Shown here: piece by piece, positions 25,999 through 48,001 of the stretch
Numbering within the stretch: position 1 is the stretch's first letter
Layout of the letters: each line of letters starts with the position of its first letter
From: Onthophagus taurus
Lineage: Eukaryota; Arthropoda; Insecta; Coleoptera; Scarabaeidae
DNA length: 64,000 bases
Direction of reading: 5' to 3'
NCBI RefSeq assembly: GCF_036711975.1
Contig: NC_091976.1
Coordinates: 5,828,001 to 5,892,000, forward strand
Position numbers and translations under genes: made by a program
The notes under the pieces: model-generated
Told to the model about the DNA's origin: nothing
Databases searched by the model: none
The model's input: the letters and a program-made list of their open reading frames with translations, nothing else

Positions 25999-27261
25999 TT
26001 ACTTCAGCCCTTTATTTTTCTTTAAATCCTCTTTTTTCTCAGAAACTTTTTTTTCCTCAACAGATTCATTCTGTTTTTGCATTTGACTTTTCGCAAGAAT
26101 CTCCAATTCGATTTTCTCCTCATTTTCAAAGAACCACAATTTAGTTTCGCGTTCTTGTAAATCTTTTTTGAGTGTTTCAACATCTAGTAATCGTTGTTCG
26201 GATCTAATCCTTTCATTCTGTTCCAAAAGCGACTTTTTCCTCTCTTCAATCCATTTATTATAAAGGTCACATTGATTAGAAATATCTCGTTCCCCCATTT
26301 TCCTTTCAGAATCTTTAACTCGCTGCTCCAAAAGAGTTTGTACATCTTCAGAATCTTGGGGAATTTCCACAATCAATTTCTTAATTTCATTGTCATCTGG
26401 GATTAGTTTTAAAATGTCAGAGTGGATTTTATCGAGTTTATTTGAGAAGTCTTTTGATTTATCAAGCTTTTCATATAAAATTAATCCAAGTAAATGTAAA
26501 GATTTTTCTAATACGCTTTCAGGATTTTTAGTGAATGTAATTAAAGTTTTTCCAATGATTTTGTTTGGTGCTGTAAGATCAAAATGATCATCATCAAAAG
26601 GATTTCTTAAATATTTAACTCGAATTTTAACTTCTTCTTCTGGTTCTTCAATTTTTTCAAGTTCAGGCCAACCTTTAGGGTCTTTTAGGTAGTTGTAACA
26701 ATTTAATAATCCCAAATTAATTGATAATGGACTCTCGAATTCTTCCTGTAACATTAAATTTGCTGCTACTCTTGCTCCATTCGCAAAAAGACCCTTTTTA
26801 TAATAATCAAACATTAATAAATTGGCAATATGGTAATCTAAGAAAATTCCGTAGTTTAACCGATCATCTAATACTCTTAACAACACTTCATCGTTATTTG
26901 TATTGTTTAAATATCTAATAACAGCGTGTGATGTTGAATTTAATGTATTTTGTGTATCGGCACTTAATCTTAATTTGTGAACTAAATCTAAGAGTTCCTC
27001 AATATAAGTATCTTCTTTTACGGCATTTGCGAATATATCTACATCTATCGCGCTGATTTTACCAGTTTTTGAGTGCCTTAATTCTAAATCTTGATAAAAA
27101 TCTTCAACATTAACTTTTTGTAAAATTGGATCTTTTAAACGATGCTCCCAATGTTCGCTACAAAAATACGCCTGCGATAAAAACTTTCGTACGGAAGGAA
27201 ATGATTTAATTTTATGCGTTTTTACAATTAAACTTGGGAAATTTCTTAAAAAAAGACTCAT
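25999..27261 (-). CDS. mRpS27: Mitochondrial ribosomal protein S27 (small subunit), 420 aa
   Basis: mRpS27 is a pentatricopeptide-like protein of the mitochondrial small ribosomal subunit, on the matrix side. The frame is a single exon of 420 codons. The first 30 residues are basic and free of acids, as expected of a mitochondrial targeting sequence. Family-like blocks are YFCSEHWEHRL (32-42) and NYGIFLDYHIANLLM (136-150) followed by ANLMLQEEFESP (167-178). The C-terminal third is highly charged, probably coiled coil at about 330-390, with a Lys/Glu-rich tail. A poly(A)-like AATAAA lies about 15-20 bases after the stop. The gene diverges from mRpL22 with 616 bp between the two start codons, including a tandem promoter duplication. 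I identify the family from memory of its conserved blocks; confidence is good but not absolute. Confidence 0.85.
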   Translation of the reverse strand: MSLFLRNFPSLIVKTHKIKSFPSVRKFLSQAYFCSEHWEHRLKDPILQKVNVEDFYQDLELRHSKTGKISAIDVDIFANAVKEDTYIEELLDLVHKLRLSADTQNTLNSTSHAVIRYLNNTNNDEVLLRVLDDRLNYGIFLDYHIANLLMFDYYKKGLFANGARVAANLMLQEEFESPLSINLGLLNCYNYLKDPKGWPELEKIEEPEEEVKIRVKYLRNPFDDDHFDLTAPNKIIGKTLITFTKNPESVLEKSLHLLGLILYEKLDKSKDFSNKLDKIHSDILKLIPDDNEIKKLIVEIPQDSEDVQTLLEQRVKDSERKMGERDISNQCDLYNKWIEERKKSLLEQNERIRSEQRLLDVETLKKDLQERETKLWFFENEEKIELEILAKSQMQKQNESVEEKKVSEKKEDLKKNKGLK

Positions 27262-27936
27262 TTTATATCGGCTTTTTTACAACATAACCTAATTTAAACG
27301 ATTTGATTAGACAAGATGTAGTAATGGATTGATGCCAACATGGGGTAAGTGAGATAACGTAATGAGAGCGATTTAGGTTAGAAAGAGATAAAAAAAGATG
27401 TTGGGGTCAATTTCTAATACACGTGAGATTTGATATGTGTCAAATTTATAACCTAACTTTTAGTATTCAATAATATCGGAAAACATTATAATAATGTTAA
27501 TATCTAAAATAATTAAAACTTCTTTAACGTTATTTTCACCTCAAATAAGTGTGAATAAGTGGGATAAAAACTTTCGTATTGAAGGAAATGATTTAATTTT
27601 GCATTTTTACAATTAACTTGGGAAATTTCTTAAAAACAGGCTCCCTTTTTATCAGCTTTATTACAACATAACCTAATTTGAACGAATTGATTTTACAAGA
27701 TGTAGTAATGGATTGATGCCAACATGGGGTAAGTGAGATAGCGTAATGAGAGTGATTTAGGTTAGAAAGAGATGAAAGATGATGTTGGGATCATTTTCTA
27801 ATACACGTGAGATTTGATATGAGTCGAATTTATAACCTAACTTTTAGTTCTCAATAATATCGAAAAACGTTATAATAATGTTAATATCTAAAATAATTAA
27901 AACTCCTTTAGCGTTATTTTCACCTCAAATAAGTGC
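27177..27936. repeat. Tandem duplication of the mRpS27/mRpL22 divergent promoter
   Basis: A unit of about 385 bp occurs twice (about 27177-27551 and 27563-27936). Each unit runs from the first codons of mRpS27 through the spacer to the first codons of mRpL22. In copy A (left) the mRpS27 start is used, and a truncated mRpL22 start ATG at 27495 leads only into a short frame. In copy B (right) the mRpL22 start at 27878 is used, and the mRpS27 start codon has changed to a non-start (CTCAT to CTCCC on plus). Each copy has thus kept one working side. Both contain the block GATGTAGTAATGGATTGATG. Confidence 0.9.
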
Positions 27937-28604
27937 TATTCATACAAGTTCGATTCTTTCTGCTTATAATCCAAATAAACCAAATAAATTTTTGAGATAC
28001 AATAAGATAGTTTATCCTCCTCAAGAAGAACATGAAGAACCTCGGCCGGCTGTAAGTGTTTCGAAATGTTTAAAAAAGATATCAAAGTATAGTTTTATCT
28101 CTTTAGTTTGTATGCCATCAAAGAACCAACATCAAATATAGTCCATGGAAAATGTGGTACATAGCATGTCTTGTACGAGGGATGACTGTTGATGAAGCTA
28201 TTAAACAATTAAAATTCGTTTTAAAAAAGGGGGCCAAAGATGTTAGAGAAACCATTGAGGAAGCCAGAGATTTAGCTATTAAGAGACATAATGTTGAATT
28301 TGGTAGTAATTTATGGGTTGGTAAGTTGGTTGGTGTAAATTCTTATTAATTATGAAATAATTTGTTTATTTGTGGTGTGTTAGCCGAATCTTTTGTGGGA
28401 AAAGGACCAGTTTTTAAAGGTGTAAGACGTCACGCCCGAGTGAGGCCTGGAATTGTCGAATATTTCCATTGCCACTATTTCGTACGATTAGAAGAGGGTA
28501 AACCACCCAAAAATTATTATTTACATGCTCCAAAAGAGCCACAAGAACAATTAGACGATTGGTTGAAGCAGATGAGGTCAAGAAAAATTATAAATTCTTT
28601 GTAA
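27878..28604 (+). CDS. mRpL22: Mitochondrial ribosomal protein L22 (uL22m), 3 exons, 202 aa
   Basis: uL22m lines the exit tunnel of the mitochondrial large subunit. The exons are 27878-28051 (58 codons, phase 0), 28107-28320 and 28384-28604, all with GT-AG introns of 55 and 63 bp. They join to one frame of 202 residues. Exon 1 has a Ser/Lys-rich targeting-type N-terminus, then YPPQEEHEEPRPA. Exon 2 reads FVCHQRTNIKYSPWKMWYI and then LVRGMTVDEAIKQL. Exon 3 carries the basic loop VFKGVRRHARVRPG and ends WLKQMRSRKIINSL. These are uL22m signatures. AATAAA lies at about 28620. The gene is divergent to mRpS27 and about 240 bp upstream of the ZFC3H1-like start codon. A partial inverted copy with introns sits at 32105-32510. 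Confidence 0.93.
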
Positions 28605-28847
28605 AATTTAATGTATTATAATAAAGTAAATGATTTAATGATTTAAATTGCGTTTTATTTAATTTAAATCTATTATTTATATTATTTACTTAAATAAATA
28701 AGATTTTTAAGGTTATTATTTCAAATTTCCCGCGATTTTAGTTTAAATATGTCAAAGGTTTGACAGTTGAAAAGAACCACCGCTATCTTCAGTTCAATTC
28801 ATTGTGAGGTTATCTCCATACGTGTTGCGTATTAATTTAGTGCGTAA

Positions 28848-31800
28848 ATGGAAACTATGGTAAAATCGGTGCCAGAGGAACCCGAAGAGGGCGAAATAAT
28901 CGATGACGAGAGCGACGAAGTAGTGGAGGACGTTTTCGAAGTGATTTCGGAAAGTTCGATACCGTGCTCTCCGCCCGTACTTGGAGTTGGTAAGTCCGTA
29001 TCGCATAGAGACTTATTACGTGCCGTTTCTTTGAGCAGCATTAGCGATTCCGATTCGGACGTACCTTCCGTAACATCCGATGCATCATCAAATCATTTTC
29101 GGGGTTCAAAACAACCCCGCCATCACCGTAAACGTAAAAGATCATCGGCGAGTTGCAAACGACGTAAACTTAAAAAGGGGTATCACGATTTCGACGTGGA
29201 TTTAAAAAAGCAATTTCAAAGGGCTATTCAAATCAATAATGAAGTTGAATTGCATGTTAATCCCTTGGAAAATCGATTAAAATCAATGTTGGGTGTTAAT
29301 AATCCCACTGATAAGGATAAGAAAGAGGATGAAGATGAGGAATTGGATAAATTGAGAGAATTAGCTCTGTTATCAAAAGAAAAAACGAATGAAAACGTTG
29401 AAGTTACTCCGGAGGAAGAAAATAAAGGTAAGGAGGAGGATGAAGAGTTAATTCAATTAAGGTTAGATGCATTAAAGTCTGCAATGATTAAAAAAGCAGC
29501 TGAGAGAAAAAAGAGAAAAGAAAATAAAGAAAATGATGTTAATAATGATAATAAAGAGGATGAAATTAAAGAAAACGATCAACCTCCCATTGAAAATTGG
29601 GGGCACAACACATCTATAGAAGAAGATGTGGATATAATGCGAGCAATGTTATTGGTATCCATGTCCAATAAAGTAATTCCAAAAAATCCACCAATTAACA
29701 AAAAGCCACCACAAAAAATAATCCAAATTAAACCAAAACCTGTTAAAAAATTAATAATAAACCTAAAAGATTCAGATGAATCCGATTCAGAAGAAAAAAA
29801 TAGTGAAAAAGACATCAAAATGGAAGTAAATAACACAAAAATCGAGGAGTTTTTGAAAACCCAACGAGCGGCTGTAGAAGAAAAATCAAAAAAAGATATT
29901 AATGAAGAGAAAGATACCTCGGGAGAAATACTTTTGGATAAATCAGTGGTGAAATTATTACCGAAATCTCAACAAAGAGAATATCAAATGTTGAAACAGA
30001 AATTGTTAAACGCAAAGAGGAAAAAATTAAGGAAAACTTCAACGAAATTGGTGACTAATAATAATATTAATGGTAATAAAGTGAACAATTGTGCGATACA
30101 AACGGTGAAAAGTGGTAGTAATGGAGTTACGAATGGTCCCAAGATTGATGGAAATAGGACGATTCTACAAAAAACTTTAGAAAACTTGCACGTGAAGAAA
30201 AGTGGAAGGTATAGCTTAGCAAATCCATCTTGGCTGGTTAGATGTGTGAGAAGTAAATCGTGAGATTGGCGATTTCGTGATGTCGACGACCAATGATCTA
30301 ACAATTTCGCTTGCTTCGATTTCTACAGGATGAGTCATCGCTATGCTTTTATACACGTTTGTATGTCTTACAAGGAAAGTATCCCTCACTGATTTCGTTG
30401 CAATTTGGTAGTTTTAAGTTCGTATAAACGGTATATACTCGCTTTTTAAATTAAAAAAACGAACTTTTTGACGCACAATGTCAAGCAGGTACCGGGCGAA
30501 AGGCCATACCTGTTCTGGTAAAAATAAGAAAAAAATTCCATATCTCTTAGCTAAGTGGTAATAGACATATTTTTGAAAATGTTAAAAATCGTTCCCATAT
30601 ATCATATCTTTAGGTAGGAGGGTCGGAAATGTTCGCTTGTTTTAATAATGATTATTAACTATGCTACTATAGAAGTCACAAATCAAACAACAAAAGTCGT
30701 TAGTTTTCCGAAAAAAATATTACTTTGATCTGGGTAAGGTTAAAAGAATTTATATCTGTTAAGTTTAACACACAATATCTAAAAAAAAAGTAGTACAGCA
30801 CCCTTGGCAAGTAATTTTATAAGATGGCTTGTTTAATCAAGTTTCCAAAATGGTACAACACTTGCCATTTTTCTTTTAAAAAATATAGTAATTTAGCACA
30901 CTATAAACAAAAATATTTTTATACATGCTGGCTGTTCCATAACGACGTACTGAAATAAACATATGTTATATTCAGAGCCCGGACAGTTTAGGAAAAGTGC
31001 GCCCCTCCACACGAAATGAATTCCATGACAACGACGTAAGTACGTTGTTGTCGCTTTTGACATCTTTTGATCACTAAGTTACTCTTCAAAATTGAATTTC
31101 GAAGAGCGATGAGCGTACCTTAGCGAAGAACTTGCTGTGCAACATTAATTAATGAATTAATAAAAATAATACAAAAATACGACTGAATTATTCATTTTTG
31201 GTTTTATTAAATTTATAATTAATAAATTAATTCATAATTTATTTCGTGACATAAGGTATGACTTATCCGACAGGTTCGCATCCTTCGATTGAATTTTGAG
31301 ACTGGAGTGGGAGGCGTTTTAGGATAACTTTCCTAAACTATCCGGGCTCTGGTTATATTAAATGGAATTATTTAGTTTTTATTGCGTATTCTGATTCTAC
31401 ACACAAAACCAAGTTGACTTTGATAAGACATGTTGATACCTAGAGCTGTTAGTTTTTGCCTTTCAAATCTGAATTTCTTGGCGATTGATCGAGCTAGAAA
31501 GTTAAAATTTGTGACAGTTGCTGCTTAGATATCCTTAAATAGAGTGCCATTTAAAATAACGTATGTTTATTTCGGTACGTCGTTATGGAACACCTGTAAG
31601 TATAAAAATATTTTCCGTTTATAGTATGATAAATTTCCTACAACTTTTGTTTAAGGAAGAACTGCGTATCTCGGCTCCTTAATGCCATTCATGTACTTTG
31701 TCGCTTGTAGGACACCTGTATAAATATTAGTGATCGGCCCATACCGATATAAATATCGGTAAATAAATATATTAACTGTTTTATATAAGTATTTGAAAGT

Positions 31801-34800
31801 AGAAACCCATTCAAAAATTTTTTTTTATAATAAAGCAACTATAAATTATTTCTTTTTAATTTTTATTAATTGTTGATCAATGAAAAAAACACGTGCATGA
31901 CACTAATAATCAAAATTTAATTTCTTTAAATTGCGATGCTAAAATATCAAACTTTCGCCACGTTCAGGTAGCAATTTGTTTCTTTTATTACAATAAATAT
32001 TTCCTGCATCAGAAAAAATTTGCTCGCTAAAAACACTTGCAGCTGGAGCAGATAAAAAGATGTCTGCCCGATTTTTTAGTTTAGGCGAGATAAAACTTTT
32101 TTTTAAACTGGTCCTTTTCCCACAAAAGATTCGGCTAACACACCACAAATAAACAAATTATTTCATAATTAATAAGAATTTACACCAACCAACTTACCAA
32201 CCCATAAATTACTACCAAATTCAACATTATGTCTCTTAATAGCCAATTCTCTGGCTTCCTCAATGGTTTCTCTAAATCTTTGGCCCCCTTTTTTAAAACG
32301 AATTTTAATTGTTTAATAGCTTCATCAACAGTCATTCCTCGTACAAGACATGCTATGTACCACATTTTCAATGGACTATATTTGATGTTGGTTCTTTGAT
32401 GGCATACAAACTAAAGAGATAAAACTATACTTAATTGATATCTTTTTTAAACATTTCGAAACACTTACAGCCGGCCGAGGTTCTTCATGTTCTTCTTGAG
32501 GAGGATAAACGGTTTTTAATACACTGTTTCTTTTGTGCAATTTTAATAAAAAGATCAAGGGGATTTAGGCGAATTTAGGCCAGAGAATGAGGAGGCCACG
32601 TAATCGAACAAAGACTCCCAATTCATCTTTCGGGATATTCTGTATTCAATCCCGTACAGGACAATGCATAATGAGCTGGGCAACCATCTTGTTGAAACCA
32701 CATTTCTCTATAGATATTGAGTGGCACATCTAGCAATGTTGTTAAATTATTTTGGAGGAAATACAAATAACATACGACAGTATGAATTTTTTAAATAACT
32801 TGTTTTTTGCAGAAAAACAGGCAATAATATTTTTTAGGAAAAGAAGAATGGCAAGTGTTATACCATTTTGGAATCTTGACTAAACAGGCCATCTTTTAAA
32901 ATAACTTGCCAAGGGTGCTGTACTACTCCTTTTTTTTAGAAATCGTGTGTCAAACTTAATAGACAAAAATTCTTTCAACCTTAACTCAATCAAACTAATA
33001 TTTTTTTTGCAAAACTAACGACTTTTGTTGTTTGATTTGTGACTTCTATAGTAGCATGATTCATAAGGAATACATTATTAAAAAAATCACTATTGAATTG
33101 CAAAGATTCATAACATAACATTTTCAAAAATATGTCTATTACCACATAGGTAAGAGACATGGAATTTTTTTCTTATTTTTACCAGAACAGGTATTGGTTG
33201 CCCTTTCCCCGGTGCTCGCTTAATGTTGAATTTGGGGCCCTGTATATCTGAGGGCTGAGGGGGTAAACTACCTTTAGTTTTTTAGAATAATTTAAAAATT
33301 ACCCTGTCGATTTTGGCGGCGTCAAGTACCCTTATAGTATGTTTAAATACAGGGTATGTATGGATAGTATATAGTGTGTCCCGTATCTTCCGCATCAGAG
33401 CATTATACGGTTGTAGGATACATTATTCTAAAGCGATCTTTCTAATAACATTTTTTCGAAATGTTATTAGAAAGTTTATTTCTCTTTCCGTGTCGAATCT
33501 ATTGGTGAGTACACGTGAGAAACGTGCTATGATCGGCGCGGCGGACGGGTCGAGGGTTGGGCCGATTACCTGTGTCTGATTTACGATCTGCTATTGGTGG
33601 AAAAATAGTTCGTTTAAATAGTTCCCGTTATTATAAACATTACGGAAAAATTTTATTAGAAAGATCGCTTCAAAATAATGTATCCTACAACCTTATAATG
33701 CTCTGATGCGGAAGATACGGGACACTCTGACCACCTGTATAGGTGGTTCAGACTTTAATCGGGAAACTTTACTAGGACGTAGTACTTGCCAAAATAACAC
33801 AAGTTTTTTTATATAAACATAGGGTTGAAACTCTCTTGTTTTTGAGCGACCAAAGTTGAGTCAAAAATTTACATTTAATTTTTTTTCGGCTATAAGTAAA
33901 CCGTAGAATTTGTAAATTTGTACGTTTACTGGTGACCTTATTTTCAAGCATACCTTAATTTTTTATAAGAACTTTTTAATACCATGACACAATTTTTTTT
34001 TAATTATATTTTAATATTATTTTAGTTTAATATTCTATTTTTTTTTACGCGAAAACTATTATCTTTAAGGAACTCATATTTTCTTATTTTATAAAAAATT
34101 CATAAAGGTTGTGAATTTCATCCCCTTAGAGAGCGCTATTGAAGCTTAAGGTATACTTGAAAATAAAGTTTTAACCAGTAGTAAAAACGTACAAAGTTTC
34201 AAATTCTACGGTTTACTTATAGCTGAAATAAAATATAAAATGTTAATGTTTGGCTCAAATTTAGAAAAGTTGCGACTCTATTTTTATATACATACTATTT
34301 TTATATAGTATGTCCGTAAAGTAGGGAATATAGGCGATAAAATCATTATAAATGGTTTATGGAAAATACCCTGAAACAGGTCTAAAGATTTAAATTTTTT
34401 CAAACTTTTGGTGGAGATTTCAAATTTTCTAAACGAGTTAAGTATAACGTTATCGATATTTTTTTCAAATGGCAATCCCCTATTTTTATTACGGAATATG
34501 AAAGAGGATTTTTCTCTAAATCTACTACAGTCAATATTAATATTGGTTACACAAGAAAATTTTCTATTCAATGACGCAAATATACGGAGCAATTTGAAAA
34601 ACAAAATTTGATAATCGCGTGAAATTGAAGATGGCATTGCAAAAAATGTATTTATAGCATGAATCTGAATGTAAATGACAGAATTACAGCTTGGGGAGTT
34701 TTTTTATGTGACAGCCTGTATTAATAAAGTCTTTTAATAGTTTATCAGTATACTTTGGCTAATGAGTTGGCGACCAGGATTTGTTGCATTAAGAATTAAA

Positions 34801-37800
34801 TCAGAGTTTGACACTCAGGGAATTGTTGAAAATCATTGGTTACCGTAGTTACTCATGGCTACTGCTATTTTTATCATTTAAACAACTTTGAAGTAATTAG
34901 ACTTTAAAGTACATCTTTCATATTCCGTAATAAAAATGGGGGATTATCATTTTACACCAAATAGAAATCTACACCAAATAGTTGCAAAAAATTTGAAACT
35001 TTAGATCCATTTCAGGGATTTTTCCATAAACCGTTTTTAATGATTTTAACGTCTATATCTGCTACTTTACGGACATACTGTACATATAAAAAACTTGTGT
35101 TATTTTGGCAAGTTTGGTCATTTAACGTCGTCGTTAAATATCGACTTTATGAAAAAAGTTATTATATAAAAGTTGTTTAACATTTTATTTTCCATAATAA
35201 GACACCATACAATTGTTTTTATGTCAGAAAACAAATGAGTAACGAATAATACTTGAATTTTTTTAAATAGCAATGTTCTGTTTCGTTAGGCCCATTTGAA
35301 AGAAATTTTTTCTCTTTTCGATGACTGTATGTACTTTTTGATGACTGTTTCGATGTAATATCTTAGTACCCTTAATACCGGAAAATTTTTCAAAAAAATT
35401 TAAATCTGTTTATTAAGTTAGTTTTACTAATAACACGAATCTAGAATATCTGAGAAAATGTCTCAGATTAATGACTCAAATTAATAATTTTTTAATTTCT
35501 TACACCATGATTAATATAATTACAAAATTTTTTAATTAATTACAATACATTTTTTTAACGATGAAAATACGTAGTAGATACATCATTTTATCTCTTTCAC
35601 TTTGATTATCATTAATATATCTTCTTTGTATATCCTTTTTTCGGACTAGCTTGTAACAGTTTTGTTTTTCGTTGTTTGATTTTATTTTTGTTTGAATTTT
35701 CGTAGTTTATGCGTGCGCCATGAGGTGTTTGCCCATATAAGGTAAAAATTTGTTTCTCGAGTTCTGATTGGTCGAGTTGTTATTCTTCTTGGGGAAGCGA
35801 GTGCGTCTCATCCCTATCGTTCAGACGCTAGTGCGTAACGTATCGTTTTAGTTAGAGGGTTAAAAAAGAAAGTTGTTTGTTCAGCACCTTATTGTTGGAT
35901 TTGGAGGCTTCTTTTCATTACGTTTTATACGGATTTGGGTTCACGATCTAATTTTTGGTTTGGAGTAACCAACGGTTTTTCCGAATTTTTTACGCTGGAA
36001 AACTTTATCGTAAAGCCGATTAATATCTAAAGGTATGTTAAGTTTTTTTTTTTCATCGACGGTCGCATAAATATTATCTAATTTTTTAGGCTTCTTCTTT
36101 TTCTCCTTTTTCATGTTTCTTTTATTCCGATTTATTTAATTTGGTCTTCGAGAGAAGTCCAACGGCGTGTGACCTTGAAAGCCATTTCGGTAACAAATTG
36201 ACACGTGGTGCAGTCCTTGTTGAGCACAGCTGATAGTTTCGACGTGAATGTTGGATGATTTGTTTCCGTTCTGTAAGAAGATTGGAGTTTTGTTCTTGGA
36301 ATAAGTGTTGATGAGTTCGGAATCAGGAAAATTTAAACAGATAAGATCTTTTCTATTTTTTTTTGTTAATGACACCAATGTAATTTAAAATCAGTCGCCT
36401 ATTTCGATTTTTATTATTAATCTTGATTTTTTTAAGTGTTATTGTATTCGGGATCGCAATATTTTTTATTATTTAAAATTCTCTGTCCAGTCTGTGTAGC
36501 ATATGGTCCTGGGAATTTGAGAGTCTCACGATATTTTCGATATTCTTTGGTTTCAATCTCTCTTTAAAATGAGAAAGACCCTCCTTTGTCGTATTTAAAT
36601 TTTCCATGGTAATCGATCAATGTTGTGTTTTCTAATCGATTCTGAACACATTTTGTAAAATTTACGGCCAATTTGTCGGATCTAGCGGAAAAAAACCACA
36701 TCGTTTAACAGGTTGACTGCCACAACTATTTTTGTTATGTTGCCAAAATTATTTTGTGTACCTTATGTGGTACATGATTCAATTTCTTTTTCGAATTAAT
36801 GAGTATCGTTGTGGGTACTCAAGCAATAAATGTAAATATACCTCATGGCCTCAAGACCAATACTTAAAACAAAGTACAGTAGGTTTCATAAACTAACGTA
36901 TGTGTACTATAAACTGTCTGTGTGAAACTTAAAACTGTTTCTAATACTTTCTGACAAAGTAGTCGAACGTAAGTAGAAGTGGTTCAATTCTGTCAACCAT
37001 TTTCGTATTGCTTCGTGTGTAATTGCACGTGATTTTGACACAGCTTCGGGCTCCCGAAAGACAATAGTTTGTCGTCTACAAAATGCCTTAAACCACTTAT
37101 CCCCAGGCTTGCCGTCTTTGAAAGGTTCTCGTTTTTTGTATGTATTTACAATGTGTTGAATCGATTTGAACAATTCTTCCTTCTTTAAGGGGAATTCTGT
37201 CATGAATAAATGCTTTAGCCACAAAGATAATTTTTTCCTCTTCTTGACTGAGAATGGTAGGTAGCTCCATAATCAAAGGCCTCATTTTTATTCAGTTCTA
37301 AGCCTGTCTATTAGGCTAGTTTTAGGAATTTGAAAATTTCGGGAAGCTTCTCATATTCCCATACCATTAAGAATTGCGTCAATAGCATCTATTAAAGATG
37401 TTTCTGAATATCACTCTTGGGAACTCTTTTTTTGGTTTTGAATACTTTGAATCAACGAGATTTGACTAGAGAGAACAATCTTCTTAAAACTGTCTATGAT
37501 TTTGAATATTTCTTTTTTAAGCAATTTTTCGTATTTTAAGGCTTCATTGAAAGAAACGGTAAAACTGTTCTATTTCAAATTGTGTCTGTACAGATTCTAA
37601 TAAAACACGATTGCAATACTTTTCTATGCTTATTTATGAAACACGTCATGCTTAGTAAAAATCTAGGGTTACTTACTTCAAACCTTCAACTCGGTATGTA
37701 TTTTTCTCAGCTGATAAAGCAGGGCAGTACTACCATCACTATTTACGCAATTACTTGTAATTTGAGTGATAGACACTGGCAACTAATAATTATTGACAGG

Positions 37801-40800
37801 CATTTTAAAAGGGAAATTTTACTACTCTTTTATTTTTTAAATTTATGGTTGCAGGTGGTCCTTAGGCGTATTAACCCTATGTTGTTTTCGTGTAGCTACT
37901 CGAATCAGTACACTTTACATTTTTTTGTTTTGTATGGTCAGTACACGTGGGATTAATTAATTTGGGTTTTTTTGCGGTTGTTACAGGTTAATTAACTACC
38001 ATATTATTGCATCAATTATTACGTTAATATTATTAATATTAATTTTAGATTGGTCAATAGATTTTCATTCGATTTATATTTTGATTATAAGAAACAACTC
38101 TTTGTTCAAACGTAACGGATGTTAACTAAGAAACGGTGGACAGCAAACGTGGAAAGTTAATTATGTATTTCACTTGTATAAATTATTAATTTTAATCAAT
38201 TTATTAATTTTATGCATAATGATGACAATTAACAATTCGACCCAAATGATTATTTACATACAGGGTGATTTACATAAGAACCGACACAGAGCAGGGACAT
38301 GTAGAGGACAATAAATTAAGATGATTTAAAGTAACTTACCTCTATACTAAGTTGTACACCTCAGAAGTTATAGGTCTTCAAAGTTGGGTCTTAAATTTTT
38401 AAAAAGTTCAATATCTTCGTAATAAATTAAGCTAGAAAAACCAAATTTGGCATACGTTATGAGTGTACCAAGGGTATTAATTGGTAGCAAATTGAACTCA
38501 ATTGAGGCATTTCATAGGGTTGATTAAGGGCGATGGTACCCTAAATTTTGACAGATCTTTTTAACCTTTTGACGGATTTAATACATTACTACTTCATTTA
38601 ATATAGAATTTAATTCTAAAACTTTTCTTACTCTTATTATTTTTTAAAAAACTTTGTCGTTTTCATAACTAAAGACACTTATTTCGTAATCTTATTTAAA
38701 ATAAGCGAAAATTCAGTAGTCGGCTATGAAATTGTACGTCAAACTTGACAAATAGGTTATAAAATTATTTGACAACAAGGTTTTATAACCTATGTGTCAA
38801 GTTTGACGTACAATTTCACAGCCGACTACTGAATTTTCGATGATTTTAAGTAACATTACGAAATAAGTGTCTTTAGGTATTTGAGTTTTTTATGAAAATG
38901 ACAATGTTTTTTAAAAAATAATAAGAGTAAAAAAAGTTTTAGAATTAAATTCCACATGAAATGAGGTAATAATGTATTAAATCCACCAAAAGGTTAAAAA
39001 AATCTGCCAAAATTTAGGGTACCATCACCCTTAATAAACCCTTTGAAATGCCTTAATTGGTGTCAATTTGCTACCAATTAATACCTTCGGTACACTCGTA
39101 ACATATACCAACTTTGGTTTTTCTAGCTTAATGTATTACGAAGATATTCAATGTTTTAAAAATTTAAGACCCAACTTTGAACGTCTATAACTCCTCAGGG
39201 GTACAACTTAGTATAGAGATAATTTGCGTTAAATCATCGTAATTTATTGTCCTCTACATGTCCCTGCTCTGTGTCGGTTCTTATGTGAATCACCCTGTAT
39301 ATCAATTAAGATCATGACAATGTCAAAACTGCTGTCATCATCGACGTGAAATTACTCAGGAATTATCGAATTTTAAGATGGGTTTTCTCTAAATAGTAGG
39401 ATTGAACAAAACGCTATACAGCACACGTGGGAAACTAATATTTTCCACTAACTTGTATGTCTTTCCACATGAGCCGAAGGCGAATTATAAATTATTAAGT
39501 TATTATCTGACATACGTATTAATGAAAAATCATAGTTTCCTCACTTGTACTGTAATATACCATGTCCTGCTGACAAAAACATGTCGTTTTGACGGTTGCT
39601 ACTACTACGCAGAAGTTCTTTCAAAAGTACTACTTAACGTATTAAGAAATCATAGTGATAAATTGCACCAAAATCGACAAGCAATACTCTCGAAAATTGA
39701 GGGTAGTTAACCCCAGCCACCCCTAAATGTCGTATACTCCCTATACATAGTACATGTTTTTATTTCCGGGTGGTCGAACATAGGCTTTACAATTCATATA
39801 ATCTTCCATTAGTCGACCACAGTGGACAATTAACAGTGGAGTGTTAGTGTACCTAACGTTTGCTAGTCGTCGACCGCTTCTTAAAATACGTAAAAATTGC
39901 TTAAAAAAGAAATATTCAAAATCATAAACATACAACTAATTTATGATTTTCTTCAAAATATTGTTTAAAAGTGTATTAGTTTATTATTTATCACATCAAT
40001 CTTACGGCAGAGGGTTATCTATTTTATCCCGTAACTGCGCAGGGTATGGTCAGAGGCAAATGAAAAAAGCACGTAATTAATGTATTGAAACCTACTATAA
40101 GGGTACTTAATGCCGTTAAAATCGAGTGGCATTAGGATGGTTTTTGAATTATTCCCAAAAGCTGGGGATAGTTTACCTGTGGTCAGATACATGTGTAATA
40201 TGAATAAAAAGCTCCTTAAAAATGATTGAAATGATTTGACGATCAGTTTACCTTTACCACATTTCTAGATGATAGCAAATTTTCGCGGTAGCAAATTACA
40301 ACGAAATCGGTGAGGGACAGTTCTGACAATACCTTGTCTGTCATATGCATTAACCTCCGCCCCCAACCTCTCACAATTTAAAATAATAACTTTACATTCA
40401 GTAAATCTATTTATCAATTAGTTTTAGGCTTTAGAAAATATTATAAATAAAATCAAATGAAAACTCGGAAGCTGTTTACAAATACAAACATTCCATGTAT
40501 ATCAATAGGACAGTTTCTAACGTGTTATGGTTCATCCAGAAAAAAGCAAAGCCACAGAATACCTTCTGTGGCGAAGCGTGCGATGTTTCCAGATCGTTGT
40601 CGTCGACCGTGTATAGTGCTCGCCAAAAATTTAGTACATCGTAATATTACATTTTTGCGGATATGCAAAATAACAATTAAGCCGTTTGAACATTATAAAT
40701 ATTATTACATTAACTCTATAGTAATTCTAGCTGTTTAAATTTTTGTATTTATTAGGCTAATTTTTTTTATAGTCTATAGCTGTTTCTTGCATCCTAGTTT

Positions 40801-43800
40801 CCATTTTCTTTCTATTTCGCCAGTCAATTTCCACTCTCCATGACCGCCTTGGTCTTCTTCCTCGTTTTCTTCGATTTGGCGATATATCCTATATTATCAT
40901 TTTCTTTGGCCATCTTTTATTCGTCATCCGTTGAACATGTCTGAACCATCTTACTCTGCTTACTTATATGATTTCCAGTATGCTAATCTGAATCCCATTT
41001 CTTTTACGATTGTCCGTATTCTTCACTCGACTAATTTTTTTTTCTGGCAGCACCTCCTCTAGTAGGGTGTTTATTCTTGATTTGCTTCTTTCATTCATGG
41101 TCCATAGTTGGGAACCATACGTGTCTATACTTTTCACTCTCTCTCTCACGGTAGCATCAAAACCCGGGGTGGGCCTTCACTGATTTTGCAATTTGTCTCC
41201 CTCACAGCATAACCAGAAAGGACGCTGGCGTCGATTCCTCTCTTTAACCTCGATTTAAATTCCCCCATCTTTACGAATCAAAGTCGATCAATCACTAAGT
41301 TGCTCTGAAAATAATATAAACACGAGTTTAATTGCAAGAAAAAGGTAATAATAAAACTTATTTACTATTCGCGATTTTTTGGAACTCGACAAAAAAAAAT
41401 TTTAAACACTTTTGTTCTACAATCTCTCATTATACAACAACATACATCAAATACATCAAACCAATAGCACAAGTTGTAAACGTAAGCGTTTAAGCACAAG
41501 TGAGGTTATCTGATAATAACAACTCCTAAAACATGGTGTCGTAAATTAGATTTAGCGGGATACCCGAAGTGTCATTTCTGATTATTCTGTGTCGATACGC
41601 GATCTTGAGGCGGTTGATTTTTAATTAACATCATAAAAACTAATTAACTAATGTTTGATTGTAGGGTATTACTGAATTCGTATTTTCTTAACTCTATTAG
41701 AAAATGTTACACAAGTGTCCCGTATCTTCCGCACCAGAACATGATACGGTTGTAGAATACATTATTCTGAAGCGATCTTTCTAATAAAATTTTGCCGAAA
41801 TGTTTATAATAACAGCACGGAAACTGTTTAAAGTCGTCCAATAGCGATTCAACAAAAGTTTAGGGAAACGCCAGTAGCTTCGACACGGAAAGCGAAATAA
41901 AGTTCTTCCGCTATTGAAGTGAATCGCTATTGGACGACTTTAAACATTTCGGAAAAATTTTATTAGAAAGATCGCTTCAGAATAATGTATCCTACAACCG
42001 TATAATGCTCTTATGCGGAAGATACGGGATAACTTGCATAGGATGTCCCGTTTAAAACAACAAAGTTGACCAATTTTTATAATTAGATGGGGGCGATTAC
42101 TTATGAAGCGTATCATATATTTTGAATAACGTAGGGGCGATACTGCACCCTTGTTGGCTGCCTTTGGAAACAGGGTGATTCTCAACCTATATGCATAAAT
42201 TTGGGGATTTCTTCCAAGGGCAATAAGATACTGTTCTTGGATTTATTTTTTTTTGTGAAAAGTTGGAAAAAAAATATTACTACTATTTCTTTTTATTATT
42301 GCTAAGTAATCTTTAATACATTTTGAAAGCATACATACATTTTTTGCGCAAAAGTTATACAAATATATAGTAAATATAACTGTAAACTTTTTCCCGAGTG
42401 AGACTCGGGCTTACACAATTTCTAACTAAAAAACTTTTACTACAATTTCTTTCACCTATTAGTTGTTATTTGTCATTAGGAATAAATCCCCAAGTTTATG
42501 CGTATATATATAGATATTATAGGTTAAGAATCACCCTTATAATATCTACAGATATTCTGTTATTGTTTTTTATAACAACTGTCATGTTTTGATACAGGCT
42601 TTAGTTCCATCTATACAGTGTGTTTGATTTTAGTTGTCACCACAGATATCTCGACCATTGTTGGATATATGACAAACTGTTATAGAAGGATAGTTGCTCG
42701 ATATTATTGAGTACTCTATTAACTATCATATTGAAAAAAAAACACAATTGACCATCTGTGTTAGATACAGCGAATACATTCGTAATTTTGAATGGAACGT
42801 GCTATTTACAACGATGCTTAGATCAGAGCTTTATTGTGACAGCATCTGTCAGGTGACCAGTATCTAAAATGATTGAGTAACTTTCTACGTGATTTACGTT
42901 ATCTACTGTATCTTACGGTATATTATCTACGATAGATAACAGAATATTAAGTGCGAAGTTACATTCCTTCTATAACATTTTATCATATCTCCAACAGTAA
43001 TCGAGATATCTGCTAACAGCTAAAATCAAACACACTGTATAGATATTTACTAATTCTGTCGGGTTAAGATCTGTAAGTAAAGTTCTTATGTGTTGTAAAT
43101 AGGACGTTTTATTCTTCATTGTTTGTTGTGATATGGAACATTATCTATTACTAACATGCTGTTTTCTGGAAAATTAGGTAGTAGTTATTAGATCAGTCAT
43201 TTCTTATAATAGGGCCGTTAAGATCAATCGATTAGAAAGACCGTCTTTCAAAAAATCGTTAATCTAAATTAAATTAGACGGATTAGTAACGTTTTCACCT
43301 TCGAAAATTGTTTAATTTTTGCAATAATTAATGTAAAAGTTTAAAATTTCCCACCCCCGTCTCCAGATGACGTTTTTAAGTAAGAGGAAAGAAATCACAG
43401 ACGTTACTTTCGTTTTGTTCCGTTTTCATCTAGCGCATAAGATTCGTAGCATTGTCTCTCTCCGGCAGTTTTTTTGATTTTTATACCCTCCAATCGTACG
43501 CTCAAATCTGAGCGACTTACTTTGGAGTTCGCACTCTGTAGTTTCTAACTTTATTATTTTCTTTTTGTAAAAATAGCCTCAGAATAAAAAATTAAAGAAT
43601 ATAGGGTCAATTAATTTTAAAGAACTTTCGAATAAGCCAATAAAAAAAATACTTAACCTCTCTATTGTCGAAAGATCAGCGTGCTGGAATTATCATCCAA
43701 GTTTTTTTCATGGGGGTAGAACGAATGTAGATATGTTTCATCCATATAAATAAAAGGCCGTACCGCATCTTTATTCTTGTTCATGCCTCAAGAAAATACA

Positions 43801-46800
43801 ACGCAAATTTGCAATCTCCTTCCTTTTCATCAATACCTTCCTATTTGTTTTCGTCTTCCATCAGCAATATCCCATATGAAATACTTACACGAATACTTTT
43901 GTTGGGCACTGTATACGACACGCATTCCGTGAAATATGATAGAGAAATAAGTTCCGTAGGTTTCGCCTACTGTTTGCTATGGCGCATCTGGCTTTCACGG
44001 CCAAGATGGATTTGCGAAGTTACATTTAAATATAATAGAATTTTTATTTATATGCAGTCGATTCCGCTTAATTGAGACGCATCGGTACCGGGTCATTTTT
44101 GCCTAATAGAGCGAAGTACGTCTAAAATAACATAAAATTATTTTCCAAAATATTTTGGTTAAATGAATGTAAATATGCAGCATACAAAACAAACTAGTAA
44201 AAACATGTATATTTTAATTAAAATAATAATTGAATATAAACACAAAAAAACAAAACTTTAACAATTTTGCACTTGTACGAAATCCGCACACATAAAGTTT
44301 CCTGTTTGTCATAACTCATAACATAGTAAAACTTCATCTATTCTTGAAAATTGTTCGCCATTTGTAACAGATTCGTGTAATGCATGATCATTTTTGTCAA
44401 CGGTGAAGGTTTCGGTACCTCAACGCTTTAAAACCGCATAGTGCAAAGCTGTCAGCAGTAAACTGTATTGCCTGCAGAATGGAAATTTTCGCACTTATCT
44501 TTGTAGCTGTTGAAACAAAGATTTTTATTTTTTTTTTGCAGTCACTATAGCGTTGTTTCAGATTTGTGTTTCTTCCAAAACCTTTCATAGTTTAATTAGA
44601 GTATTGGTTTCATAGTTTAGACAATCTTATCATATATTGGTCTATGCACGATCACCTGCGTGAAATCCGCTTTGTTCTTTTGCTTTCTGTTTTTCATATT
44701 CTCGTTCTATTATATCTTTTACAATTCTTCCACATAATCGACTAAATGTGGCTGTAACCGTTATGCCCCGATAATTCTCACATTTCTACTTATCCCCGTT
44801 TTTAAGGGACGTTTTGACGTTTTTTAACATCAACCGTATGGCTTATTATAGTAATTAGTTTATCTATTCGCTTCTTTACTAATTCAGCTTTAATGTTTTT
44901 CGCTCCACTAACCTTCCTCTTCTTTAATCTATTAATTGATTCTCTAAATGTCTAAGCTTCTTTACAACATCTTATATACATGTAGCATTATAGATGACGT
45001 CTGCACAGAAATCTTTCAAAAAAGTCTTTCATTATCGGCGCTTCCTTTTTTCACCGCGTCCTTTCTTAAATTTGATGTTGTGTTTTGCTTTCCATGGAAA
45101 TAACCATCCATCTGTTGCTTTAAATTCGTTGTGTTCTAGTTTTATCGCAATCTCTTCTGATTACACCTTTGCCCACTAAGTACGGAAAACCATTTATTCA
45201 ACAGACTTTGTGCGATCTTTCTTTTCTGTCCATTTTCACCTAGGTCGTCTTCTTCTAGTAATAGACGAGCTAGAGTAGATTTCGGTATATCAAAAATTTC
45301 TCCGATAGACGGGCATATCGCTTTAGCACTGGTTCAATCGAACGTAGAGGCCATAAAAATACAACGATTGATGTCACTACATATTGTACCATGTCTGATA
45401 AATTACAATCGGTTTTCTCGACCCAAAAAAATCATTTTGGCGGATCTTTGTCTCGATTAAGCGGAAAGCTGTCCTAATTAATCGATTAAAATATACAGAA
45501 ATTACATAGGATACCGGTTTTTTTAAATTTGCCCTAAATAAGCGGCTGTTCCGATTAATCGGCGTTCCAATTAATCGGAATCGACTGTATTTATAAATTG
45601 CTTAGATTTAAATGAGTCATTTAATACTCCTTAATGCATGCATATTTATGAAAATTAGTATAATACATGGTAAGTCTTAGAAATGTATAAATAATATTTA
45701 CAAAGTGTTTATAAAATTTTCTTTATATTTATATGATTAATTTTTGTGCTTTTATTTTATTAATTATTGATAACTTTATATTTAAAAGAAGAGTATCTAG
45801 CAAAGAAATAATAAATCGATAAATTAGATTATTCTGATAAGATTTGAGCCAATATTTTCCAAACTAATTTCAAAAAATATGAATTAATATTTCATTTTCT
45901 TGAATATCATCAAATATTTCAAACATCCGTGTGTCTGGTTCAAAAACCTCGATTTTTTTCCCTTACTTAACTTCAAAAGTTGCCAAAAATGCCATTTTTC
46001 TTGTACATAACCTTAGATATCTCAAAATCCTGACTTCATGGTCCAATTCTGAGCTCGAATTATGAGTTTACGAAAATTGCTGCTGTTTTCATTATCCAGA
46101 TCCCCAGCTTTTCAATTATTTGCGTTCTCAATCCGCCCATCTTTCACATTTAATGAGGTGTACTCAGCGTCATCTCTTTCATTATAGTACATGTACTGTT
46201 TGGCGTAGTATCTTTTGTGCAATATGTTTTAAAATATCTGTGTAAATTAACCAACTGCACCAACTTTATTGAGCTTTACCAGTACAGTGGACTCGCGATA
46301 ATGTGAACAGAATAAAACTGAGCCTGTTCCACCGAATTTTTTGTCCACCTTAAAGAATGTCTTTTCTTTTATTTAACTAGGTTGAGTTACAGTTCTTGAG
46401 ACATCTGAGATTTTTAGCTAATTATCTAGGTTGATCTAGCACTGCTAATATTTTAGATTTTTTATTTATCATTGAACAAGCGCTTGATTTTGCAATACCG
46501 TGCTTTCTACCTAACGCAGACACACTTACTCCTTTCTTTAATTATCTTAGACTTTTCGTAGAGAGATAAACGTTTACTTTTAATTTTAGCAATTTTTAAC
46601 AAAACTCACTAGCAGCGATGCTTTCATCTTCACTATCACACAGTAGCTTTTATAACAAGACTTCATCTTGTGTGCCATTCCCTTAGCGTGTATTCTGTTA
46701 ATACGTTCTTGTGGTGATGCTCCTCTATGACTTCTATAATTTCACAACAATATTAATGTATTAGTTATAGTTAACTGTTTGAGTCTCAAGTTGATTTTGT

Positions 46801-48001
46801 GTCAAAAAATCCCAGTACATTTCTAGCACTGTGGACAACTAGCGGTGCTGTCAACCACTTAAAGCAAGAGTGGTGAGATTTAGTGGGATTTTTCAATACC
46901 CTTTGGTATCCAAACGGTTAAATATAGCTAAACTATACTTTTTTATTCTACATATTTTATTTATTTTTCTGTACCGATTTGAATGCAACGGTATCATCAT
47001 CATCGGGAAAACATATTACAATATCAAATTTGTGATAAACATAAAGCTACTAATATCTTAAAAATTATCATTACAATTTCTTCAAATACAATCAATATGA
47101 TTTTTTTACAAATTATCAATATTTGGTTAAATAAAAAGTGTTTATTTAAAAATTATATTTTTATACATTTTTATGACTCACCTTGTCTTGTAAAATGCAC
47201 AAAAAATCTTTTGAGCTGCAAATTTAGATTCCAGATGAAAGGTAAGTACAAGGCGCTGGGACCTCTACTTCAAAAAGTGAACCAGGCGAGTCTCGACCGT
47301 CAACGTTGTGAGGTGACGATCAAAACGTTACTGGGCGAACTACAAAAGGCTCGAGATAAACTCCACGTTACGCAACAAAACTACTCCAATCTACTGGTCA
47401 AGTTAAAAAAGGCGAAAAACGCAATAGATCGAGGGTTTGTCAATAAAAATATATACATAATAACAATTCAAAATATTCAAACCATTTTAACTACCACAAA
47501 AAAATGGGTTCAATGAAGATTTTTTTAGTGCTGCTTTAAGAAAAACGAAAGAAACTTTTGAAACGAAAGTGAAAGTTTTGGAGGAGAATAAAACTTCAAC
47601 ACCGATTAAAAATGTTAATAGTGCCAAAAGTACTGATAAAGTGACTGCAAATGGTGCGGAATTAATAGAAATTGATGTTAGTACGATTAATATAAGCGCT
47701 CCCACTGGAAATAGGGAGCAAGTTAATCAGGAAGTTGAAATGGAGATGGAAAAGGAAATTAAAAAAGATCCCGAAGAACATATTAAATATGTATCTCCAT
47801 TAGATACTAATAATAGGTACTTATGAATCGCTTGATGTTTAAAATATTATAAATGACGTTAACATGTCAAAATTGATATTAAAAATTATTATTTTTAGCG
47901 AGCAGGTATATGATCCCTTAATAATGTATTGTCCTTTTGAGTTGTTTGGAGTGTGTAAAGATCCAGAGTGCCAATTTAATCATTGTTCATCCAAGTTGTG
48001 A
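28848..48001 (+). CDS. ZFC3H1-like protein (zf-C3H1 domain), 4 exons, 652 aa
   Basis: ZFC3H1 proteins act in the nucleus, linking poly(A) RNA to the exosome. Reconstructed exons: 28848-30208 (453 codons plus 2 bases), 47228-47434, 47529-47816 and 47899-48001; the phases agree at every join and introns are GT-AG. Exon 1 begins METMVKSVPEEPEEGEIIDD, is Ser/Glu/Lys rich, has a basic nuclear-type RHHRKRKR patch at about 91-98 and EEDEELIQLRLDALKSAM near 195-212. Exons 2-3 form a coiled coil (YKALGPLLQKV, LLGELQKARDKL). Exon 4 has YCPFELFGVCKDPECQFNH, matching the CX7CX4CX3H putative zinc finger of ZFC3H1. The stop follows five codons later; vertebrate proteins continue far beyond with HAT-type repeats. 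The stop lies within a possible splice donor (GTGAGG at 47997), so further exons outside the window are possible. Intron 1 is about 17 kb and full of transposons. Confidence 0.75.
30888..31640. mobile_element. Fold-back element containing a hAT MITE
   Basis: The inverted ends share GTTCCATAACGACGTAC (30934 onward and the inverse ending near 31592), and the pairing extends outwards to about 30888 and 31640. The inner part is split by the hAT MITE at 30973-31351, which inserted later. Confidence 0.75.
30973..31351. mobile_element. Non-autonomous hAT MITE with exact 8-bp target duplication
   Basis: The ends are CAGAGCCCGGACAGTTTAGG at 30973 and the near-perfect inverse (TTTCCTAAACTATCCGGGCTCTG, shortened here to its last part CCGGGCTCTG) ending at 31351. 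GTTATATT flanks both sides (30965-30972 and 31352-31359). The terminal CAGAG and the 8-bp duplication identify hAT. It encodes nothing. Confidence 0.92.
31727..32148 (-). pseudogene. hAT transposase C-terminal fragment fused to the mRpL22 piece
   Basis: The minus frame from 32148 reads first through mRpL22 exon 3 sequence in a wrong frame (MWCVSRIFCGKRTS). Near 32105 it switches to a hAT dimerisation domain: LSAPAASVFSEQIFSDAGNI, then NKRNKLLPE. The element's 3' end seems to be at about 31727, where GTGATCGGCCCATACCGAT resembles a hAT end with subterminal repeats. Only the last part of the transposase survives. Confidence 0.7.
32105..32510 (-). pseudogene. Inverted partial copy of mRpL22 (exon 1 end, intron 1, exon 2, intron 2, start of exon 3)
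   Basis: This segment matches about 28010-28420 in inverse orientation and includes both introns, so it arose from DNA and not from mRNA. I count fewer than ten differences by eye: a base lost in exon 2 (frameshift after GAKD), TGG changed to TTG before MWYIACLV, a small insertion in intron 1 and three clustered changes near the end of exon 2. It cannot make uL22m. It lies inside the intron of the next gene and in opposite orientation to mRpL22. Confidence 0.93.
32520..32750 (-). pseudogene. DUF4817-type transposase fragment
   Basis: On minus one frame reads LDVPLNIYREMWFQQDGCPA, then LNTEYPER, WPPHSLA and, after a stop, RLNPLDLF. The second catalytic Asp (QQDG) and the motif before the third acidic residue are recognisable. 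It ends abruptly where the mRpL22 fragment begins at 32510. Confidence 0.65.
33245..33360. repeat. Dispersed repeat shared with 40085-40190 (inverse)
   Basis: Both copies share AAGTACCCTTATAGTA, a CGATTTT segment and GGGTAAACTA-like sequence at the same spacing. The family is not recognised. Confidence 0.55.
33376..33727. mobile_element. MITE with GTGTCCCGTATCTTCCGC ends, copy 1
   Basis: The left and right arms are inverse (CCCGTATCTTCCGCATCAGA; GATCTTTCTAATAA). The centre contains GGCGCGGCGGAC and GATTTACGATC. Other copies are at 41714-42030 and 63718-63925. The 88-codon frame here is not a gene. Confidence 0.85.
33733..33975. repeat. Dispersed repeat, inverse copy of 17300-17612
   Basis: It shares ACTTGCCAAAATAACACAAG and the CGGTTTACTTATA-type block in inverse orientation with the 17.3 kb copy. 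Confidence 0.65.
34085..35115. repeat. Dispersed repeat (17.3 kb family) split by a DNA element
   Basis: The left part (34085-34290) and the right part (35083-35115, ACTTGTGTTATTTTGGCAAG) together match the unbroken copy at 17300-17612. The missing join is exactly where the element at 34306-35082 sits, so it is a filled site. Confidence 0.75.
34306..35082. mobile_element. DNA element with long inverted repeats ending TAGTATGTCCGTAAAGTA
   Basis: The left end reads TAGTATGTCCGTAAAGTA and the right end reads TACTTTACGGACATACTGTA. The arms pair over more than 200 bp (shared GGTTTATGGAAAA and CTGAAAC blocks). It is nested in a second repeat with TATA-type flanks. The 10548-10897 relic belongs to the same family. 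No transposase is encoded. Confidence 0.8.
35116..36660. other. No gene recognised; a less AT-rich segment at 35640-36140
   Basis: Most of it is simple AT-rich sequence. Around 35700-36030 the composition is richer in GC, with an AAAG|GTATGT donor-like site at about 36030. An untranslated exon or a solo LTR is possible, but no LTR partner or coding frame supports either. Confidence 0.3.
36703..36725 (+). mobile_element. piggyBac-like terminus, single end
   Basis: TTAACAGGTTGACTGCCACA resembles the TTAA-anchored ends of piggyBac-like elements and the 92-bp MITE at 57720. No opposite end was found nearby. Confidence 0.35.
36907..37440 (-). pseudogene. pogo-type transposase N-terminal fragment (psq HTH and CENPB-like domain)
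   Basis: Reading minus from about 37420, a helix-turn-helix appears: ETSLIDAIDAILNGMGI, a stop, then EASRNFQIPKTSLIDRL. It is followed by ELPTILSQEEEKII and, after a frameshift, by IQHIVNTYKKREPF, PGDKWFKAFCRRQ and EAIRKWLTEL. This is the pipsqueak/CENPB-type DNA-binding half of a pogo/Tigger transposase. The catalytic domain is absent. Confidence 0.7.
37445..38258. other. Non-coding stretch with uncharacterised frame
   Basis: A 124-codon plus frame at 37582-37956 has no domain, and its composition is like the surrounding sequence. Nothing else is recognised. Confidence 0.35.
38259..39299. mobile_element. Near-complete palindrome: fold-back MITE with arms of about 500 bp
   Basis: The ends are TACAGGGTGATTTACATAAG and its inverse ending ACCCTGTA, with TA flanks. 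The arms run almost to the middle near 38770, with only a few bases of loop next to GACAAATAGGTTATAAAA / GGTTTTATAACCTATGTGTC. Divergence between arms is low by eye. No coding capacity. Confidence 0.9.
39300..40745. other. No gene recognised; contains the 40085-40190 repeat
   Basis: A 102-codon plus frame (39402-39710) and a 93-codon frame (40457-40738) show no known motif. 40085-40190 is the inverse of 33245-33360. The block at 40283-40320 resembles sequence at about 30380-30415, so the stretch is probably old transposon sequence. Confidence 0.4.
40750..41160 (-). pseudogene. LINE reverse transcriptase C-terminal fragment
   Basis: On minus, YGSQLWTMNERSKSRIN is followed in broken frames by RNGIQISILEI, VQTC, then KKTRKKTKAV / RRPRRSWRVEIDWRN. 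This is the typical tail of RTE- or CR1-like LINE proteins. Several frameshifts. Confidence 0.6.
41161..41713. other. No gene recognised
   Basis: AT-rich intronic sequence without paired repeats that I could detect. Confidence 0.35.
41714..42030. mobile_element. MITE with GTGTCCCGTATCTTCCGC ends, copy 2
   Basis: AGTGTCCCGTATCTTCCGC at the left and GCGGAAGATACGGGA at the right are inverse, with matching GATCTTTCTAATAAAATTTT blocks inside. The centre carries a separate short inverted repeat (TCGCTATTGGACGACTTTAA and inverse). Confidence 0.85.
42172..42537. mobile_element. Small MITE with AGGGTGATTCT ends
   Basis: AGGGTGATTCTCAACCTATA at the left pairs with TAGGTTAAGAATCACCCT at the right; the arms also share AAATCCCCAA. 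It is about 365 bp and encodes nothing. Confidence 0.7.
42614..43039. mobile_element. MITE with TACAGTGTGTTTGATTTTAG ends
   Basis: The left end TACAGTGTGTTTGATTTTAG is inverse to the right end AAATCAAACACACTGTA. The inner arms share GATATCTCGA and TATAACA blocks. It is about 426 bp. Confidence 0.85.
43040..44054. other. No gene recognised
   Basis: Intronic sequence; the 88-codon frame at 43809-44075 has no domain. No paired repeats were seen. Confidence 0.4.
44055..45587 (-). mobile_element. pogo/Tigger-like element, decayed
   Basis: The ends are CAGTCGATTCCGCTTAATTG (left) and the inverse of CAGTCGATTCCGATTAATTG (right), the type seen in pogo/Tigger elements. Reading minus from about 45420, broken frames show SLSEKFLIYRNLL-like HTH sequence, RKIAQSLLNKWF and KATDGWLFPWKAKHNIKFKK, a CENPB-type DNA-binding domain. 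The catalytic domain is not seen. A LINE fragment (44620-44830) lies inside. Confidence 0.7.
44620..44830 (-). pseudogene. LINE reverse transcriptase fragment inside the pogo element
   Basis: On minus, broken frames read ENYRGITVTATFSRLCGRIV and KEQSGFHAGDRA, matching the RT motif region (RGIT... QSGFR.GRS) of RTE-like LINEs. It may belong to the same family as the tail at 40750-41160. Confidence 0.55.
46283..46620 (-). pseudogene. pogo-type element end with HTH scrap
   Basis: TACAGTGGACTCGCGATAAT at 46283 is a Tigger-like terminus. On minus, SLSTKSLRIIKE followed by a stop-broken ARYCKIKRLFND resembles the HTH of pogo transposases. The rest is lost. Confidence 0.5.
46621..47227. other. Intron end before ZFC3H1-like exon 2
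   Basis: Nothing is recognised before the exon. The frame beginning at 46983 runs into exon 2 by chance; the acceptor at 47226-47227 fixes the exon start. Confidence 0.5.

Follow-up and report, generated by a model that had tools for sequence, protein, structure and literature searches.

The window analysed here, a stretch of 64,000 nucleotides of the genome of Onthophagus taurus, contains the ribosomal protein gene mRpL22 and, in reverse orientation within the first intron of the next gene, a second copy of part of it, which raises the question whether this copy acts as a built-in antisense source for mRpL22, as the original prediction proposed, or is a remnant of DNA repair. The copy is very probably a partial, unspliced mRpL22 pseudogene, functionless and decaying, that was left by local templated repair inside a dead mariner-like element, i.e., an ordinary repair scar. 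The features that bear on this question are listed in Table 1.

Table 1. Positions (in the window) of mRpL22, its neighbour, the inverted copy and the surrounding transposon pieces
Feature	Positions	Strand	Basis
mRpL22 (uL22m) gene, with a 202-aa open frame in coding exons 27878-28051, 28107-28320, 28384-28604	27878..28604	+	PF00237, protein search
Copied part of mRpL22, from the end of exon 1 through both introns and exon 2 to the start of exon 3	28010..28413	+	Alignment, BLASTN
ZFC3H1-like gene, 652-aa NCBI model; coding exons 28848-30208, 47228-47435, 47530-47814, 47897-48001	28848..48001	+	Joined exons
Intron 1 of the ZFC3H1-like gene, contains the mRpL22 copy	30209..47227	+	Gene model
Left terminal inverted repeat of the old mariner-like element, truncated at both ends	30476..30886		Family comparison
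TE2, second element with a TA target; left end missing, right end (...GGACACCTGTA) kept	30887..31720		Family comparison
hAT-type MITE nested in TE2, with the 8-bp target duplication GTTATATT on either side	30973..31351		Sequence
hAT transposon 3' end, including the transposase C-terminal dimerisation domain; stops at the mRpL22 copy	31729..32104	-	PF05699
Inverted unspliced mRpL22 copy; a 1-nt deletion shifts its frame, and Trp72 has become Leu	32105..32510	-	Alignment, genome search
Right part of the same mariner-like element: transposase remnant (minus strand) and right terminal inverted repeat, ends at TA	32507..33246		Family comparison

The inverted segment and the genes around it

The presence of an inverted mRpL22 piece was borne out by local alignment with the reverse complement: positions 32105-32510 on the minus strand are a reverse copy of 28010-28413 on the plus strand, both introns included, with four substitutions at 403 paired sites (gene positions 28147, 28181, 28271 and 28274) and two indels, a 3-nt insertion and a 1-nt deletion in the copy. 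The longest perfect run was 139 nt, and BLASTN gave 98.0% identity over 407 columns (bit score 693); judged from these comparisons, chance as the cause of the match can be excluded. The extent had been given as exons 1-3, which holds for exon 2 as a whole (214 nt), whereas exon 1 is represented only by its last 42 of 174 nt and exon 3 only by the first 30 of 221 coding nt, with a coding part of 286 of the 609 nt of mRpL22.

Regarding the source gene, the translation agreed with the O. taurus record (P0001) at 201 of 202 residues, the Pfam family Ribosomal_L22 (PF00237) was matched in a scan run on that record, and this gene was the only full mRpL22 copy found by protein search of the genome. 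The same search yielded five matches, of which three fall in the gene and two in the inverted copy. A DNA search across all 33 contigs of the assembly (290.8 Mb) placed the segment at two sites only, the gene and the copy, which rules out a dispersed repeat. A processed pseudogene was likewise rejected, as both introns lie inside the copy, which must therefore derive from DNA. With parental introns kept and a frame that is disabled and incomplete, the copy has the properties of an unprocessed duplicated pseudogene. The lost Trp72 is Trp in 10 of 12 aligned proteins and Phe in the other two. An in-frame fusion with the hAT transposase was considered because the copy directly precedes the hAT end in sense orientation, but the frames differ, and on its sequence the copy gives no apparent sign of protein use. 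An Rfam scan of positions 27000-34000 gave no match to an RNA family.

The position of the neighbouring gene agreed with the original prediction: the ATG of the ZFC3H1-like gene lies 243 bp past the mRpL22 stop codon on the same strand. Its four joined exons reproduce the 652-aa O. taurus protein of NCBI (P0121) exactly and intron 1 has GT and AG ends, which places the copy inside this 17.0-kb intron. A zf-C3H1 domain near the end of the protein scored 19.5 bits (E 8e-4), below the Pfam cut-off of 20.9, and the relative from Oryctes passes the cut-off with 21.1 bits, so that 'ZFC3H1-like' appears a reasonable, provisional name. The databases list this gene as 'putative autophagy-related protein 11' (NCBI) and its Tribolium relative as 'DNA mismatch repair protein Msh3'; both names are ill-suited to the zf-C3H1-like end and may be misnamings.

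An assembly error had been named as one way in which the inverted copy could prove spurious; nothing was found in favour of it. According to the available text of its description (PMC10942260), the published assembly of 290.0 Mb was built from PacBio HiFi reads (86.6x, read N50 13.8 kb) and Omni-C data, and this read N50 exceeds the whole 4.5-kb inverted structure. Given the six differences between copy and source, their different flanks, a joint between the hAT and mRpL22 pieces that is unique in the genome, and the long reads, an artefact has next to no probability.

A patch within an old mariner-like element

As comparison with related loci showed, the copy is one piece of a patch that has taken the place of about 400 bp within a mariner-like transposon, itself old, broken and a member of a repeated family. 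Members of this family have a TA target, a transposase remnant and long terminal inverted repeats (about 610 bp). As a Pfam search gave no match for the 55-aa remnant, the label 'mariner-like' is presumptive, its basis being the TA target, the length of the inverted repeats and a sequence motif. The comparison set consisted of 29 loci (L034-L062); family copy counts are lower bounds, as 40 of 538 and 40 of 277 candidates were scored in the genome search.

In all 29 loci, homology to the right half begins at 32507-32512. On the left, 28 loci have a match that stops at 30880-30890 (exactly at 30886 in 27), L046 being without a left match. Matches crossing either limit of the patch were not found among the 29 family loci. 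The two limits lie about 400 bp apart in complete members (1097 and 1497 in L041), compared with 1620 bp of other DNA between them here. The left end of the element is without the terminal bases and the TA that are present in five family copies compared, and its left repeat has also lost the inner part.

From left to right, the patch consists of TE2 with its nested MITE, the hAT 3' end and the mRpL22 piece. TE2 is without its left 75-90 bases. The hAT 3' end matched its Pfam domain with an E-value of 7e-7 and was 94% identical to the C6 copy L063 over 31894-32067. Regarding the inner junctions, natural transposon ends occur at the contact between TE2 and hAT only; the left junction of the patch falls within an A-rich run that the two sides share; the right joint has one base in common with the mRpL22 source. 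A 61-bp query across the hAT/mRpL22 joint found matches only here in the genome search, and in a pattern search the 27 bases beside the joint matched only three retrieved loci, all of which correspond to this one.

Age and origin of the copy

The host element differs from the family majority sequence at 53 of 725 positions in the right half (7.3%) and at 43 of 385 in the left half (11.2%), compared with 2.2-5.8% for the family members examined (ten in the right half, six in the left), whereas between the mRpL22 copy and its source 1.0% of the paired sites differ. The contrast between host and copy was significant for both halves together (Fisher p 1.5e-9) and for the right half alone (p 5.5e-7). 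On this ground the copy looks younger than the element that holds it, although part of the divergence of the host may predate the insertion and the low divergence of the copy could stem from gene conversion between the arms instead of youth.

An old patch whose mRpL22 copy has stayed source-like through gene conversion between the inverted arms is an unlikely alternative, for which residue 116 (exon 28107-28320) can be adduced: both the window gene and the copy have ATT (Ile), P0001 has Val, and the 11 other beetle proteins have Val in eight cases and Leu, Ile and Ala in one each. The shared Ile hints at a polymorphism or at a trace of conversion; the former might predate the copy, a single site proves little, and the frameshift and the change of Trp to Leu have been converted in neither direction. 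At residue 113 the window gene has Asp, whereas Glu stands in the copy and in 7 of the 11 other beetle proteins; the Glu of the copy may represent an older state kept there or a chance arrival. The two residues point in opposite ways, and neither decides between gene conversion and a young copy.

That the piece was instead taken up and carried by an active mariner-like or hAT element, by a Pack-type capture, would agree with its location inside an element with terminal inverted repeats and directly beside a hAT transposase end. Such a capture is nevertheless judged decidedly improbable, considering that a single copy was found in the genome, 4 kb from the source, that the piece is far less diverged than the element, that the left end of the element is eroded, and that the hAT reading frame is not continuous with that of mRpL22. 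Capture followed by spread was dropped as the main reading on account of the single copy, the unique joint and the younger piece; since neither the piece nor the joint occurs elsewhere in the genome, no spread by the element is visible. The Pack-TYPE transposons of plants, as characterised in the available part of PMC8903248, resemble the locus in that host coding DNA lies inside a non-autonomous DNA transposon. A Pack-TYPE origin would entail a fragment between intact terminal inverted repeats with a target duplication, and several fragment-bearing copies or capture at insertion; the mRpL22 piece, in contrast, lies in an element whose left repeat is damaged, was found once, is younger than its element and gives no sign of movement.

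A local and late origin of the copy, by templated repair inside the dead element, is the most likely one, since the host has diverged so much further from its family than the copy from its source. A break would have arisen inside the already dead mariner-like element, and repair synthesis would have switched template to the nearby mRpL22 gene and then returned, leaving the reversed 405-bp copy 4 kb from its source. In one repair or in a series, the element would have lost about 400 bp of its middle and gained TE2, the hAT end and the mRpL22 piece; the TE2 and hAT pieces may have been brought by earlier transposition, with deletions afterwards, or they may have come together with the mRpL22 join. 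The patchwork, the loss of about 400 bp, the restriction of the sequence to two genomic sites, the lower divergence of the copy and its disabled frame are observations. We infer that break repair with a template switch caused the join, that a single event may account for all pieces, and that the copy is presumably without function.

The size of the copy would better suit a larger template switch of the replication type, and such a switch would be needed because the templated insertions of the fly study cited next are far shorter than 405 bp. In the available text on Drosophila end joining (PMC2895639), insertions mix several templates, in direct and in reverse-complement orientation, and the templated insertions given there measure a few to tens of nucleotides. 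Among known classes of sequence, a duplicated partial pseudogene formed by local inverted duplication or template switch is similar to the copy in its retained introns, partial extent, disabled frame, proximity to the source and patchwork joints; the mRpL22 copy differs in lying wholly in the gap of an old transposon, together with two further transposon pieces.

Antisense potential and other features of the window

The geometry on which the proposed antisense function was based is present, as the ZFC3H1-like pre-mRNA would include a near-perfect mRpL22 antisense stretch of about 405 nt; control of mRpL22, by contrast, was not supported, the arms belonging to separate gene models, and the antisense being intronic and set in transposon debris. 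The antisense orientation of the copy follows simply from its inversion. Under such control, the ZFC3H1-like pre-mRNA or a self-folded read-through transcript would pair with mRpL22 RNA and lead to dicing or blocked expression, to which the length of the antisense, its 139-nt perfect run and transcription of both genes from the same strand would be favourable. The arms lie 3.7 kb apart, however, and between them are an AATAAA signal at 28620, followed by a second at 28693, and an initiator-like TCAGT at 28789, TCAGT being an arthropod initiator motif. For the two arms to form a hairpin, transcription would have to continue beyond the AATAAA at 28620 and beyond the point where the next gene apparently starts. 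In addition, the antisense arm is in a 17-kb intron and thus probably nuclear and short-lived, and Dicer-2 acts mainly in the cytoplasm; the copy is moreover single and its frame broken. Because the arms fall into two gene models, with a polyadenylation-type signal and an initiator-like site between them, and the antisense is intronic, this control is rated very unlikely.

A precedent in its favour is hp58 of Drosophila simulans, described in the available text of PMC10317233 among hairpin RNAs that were born beside their progenitor gene from an inverted fragment. In both loci an inverted piece of a coding gene lies close to the gene it came from, one gene away in hp58 and in the next gene here. 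In the same source (PMC10317233), the hairpin RNA loci have both arms within a primary transcript, and hp58 is a hairpin with an inverted repeat whose siRNAs are complementary to the target; the ZFC3H1-like gene model, in contrast, includes one arm only, the other belonging to mRpL22. There is a small chance that the copy is an early step toward a hairpin RNA. The stronger proposal, that break repair in a dead transposon has put antisense of an essential gene into an active neighbouring unit and that read-through or pairing in trans already gives some mRpL22 endo-siRNA, has but a slight probability. A literature search (titles and abstract openings, with few subscription papers covered) yielded analogues but no report of this locus, and no paper on siRNA or small RNA sequencing in Onthophagus was found.

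As a regulator of mRpL22, the copy offers nothing to report yet. The locus is of interest because it illustrates how an inverted piece of a gene may come to lie in the intron of a neighbour through repair in a dead transposon resident there, and inverted fragments of this kind are raw material from which hairpin RNAs can arise. The arms, which are 99% alike, together with the DNA between them (28010-32510), take in the mRpL22 end as well as exon 1 of the ZFC3H1-like gene; if the arms recombined, 28414-32104 would be expected to be inverted and both genes broken.

Upstream of mRpL22, positions 27176-27551 and 27563-27935 form a tandem duplication of the promoter shared by mRpS27 and mRpL22 (344 of 373 aligned positions identical). 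mRpS27 (25999-27261, minus strand) is arranged head-to-head with mRpL22, each gene has its own promoter copy, and first-exon relics of both genes lie between the two copies. Elsewhere in the window, long open transposase frames were found on the minus strand at 61209-63029 and 52057-53271; a 606-aa frame matched DDE_Tnp_1_7 (E 2e-73) and is presumably of the piggyBac type, and a Mutator-like frame was matched with an E-value of 2e-60. Two further long open frames on the minus strand, within 2150-6636, look to us like the gag and pol of an LTR retrotransposon.
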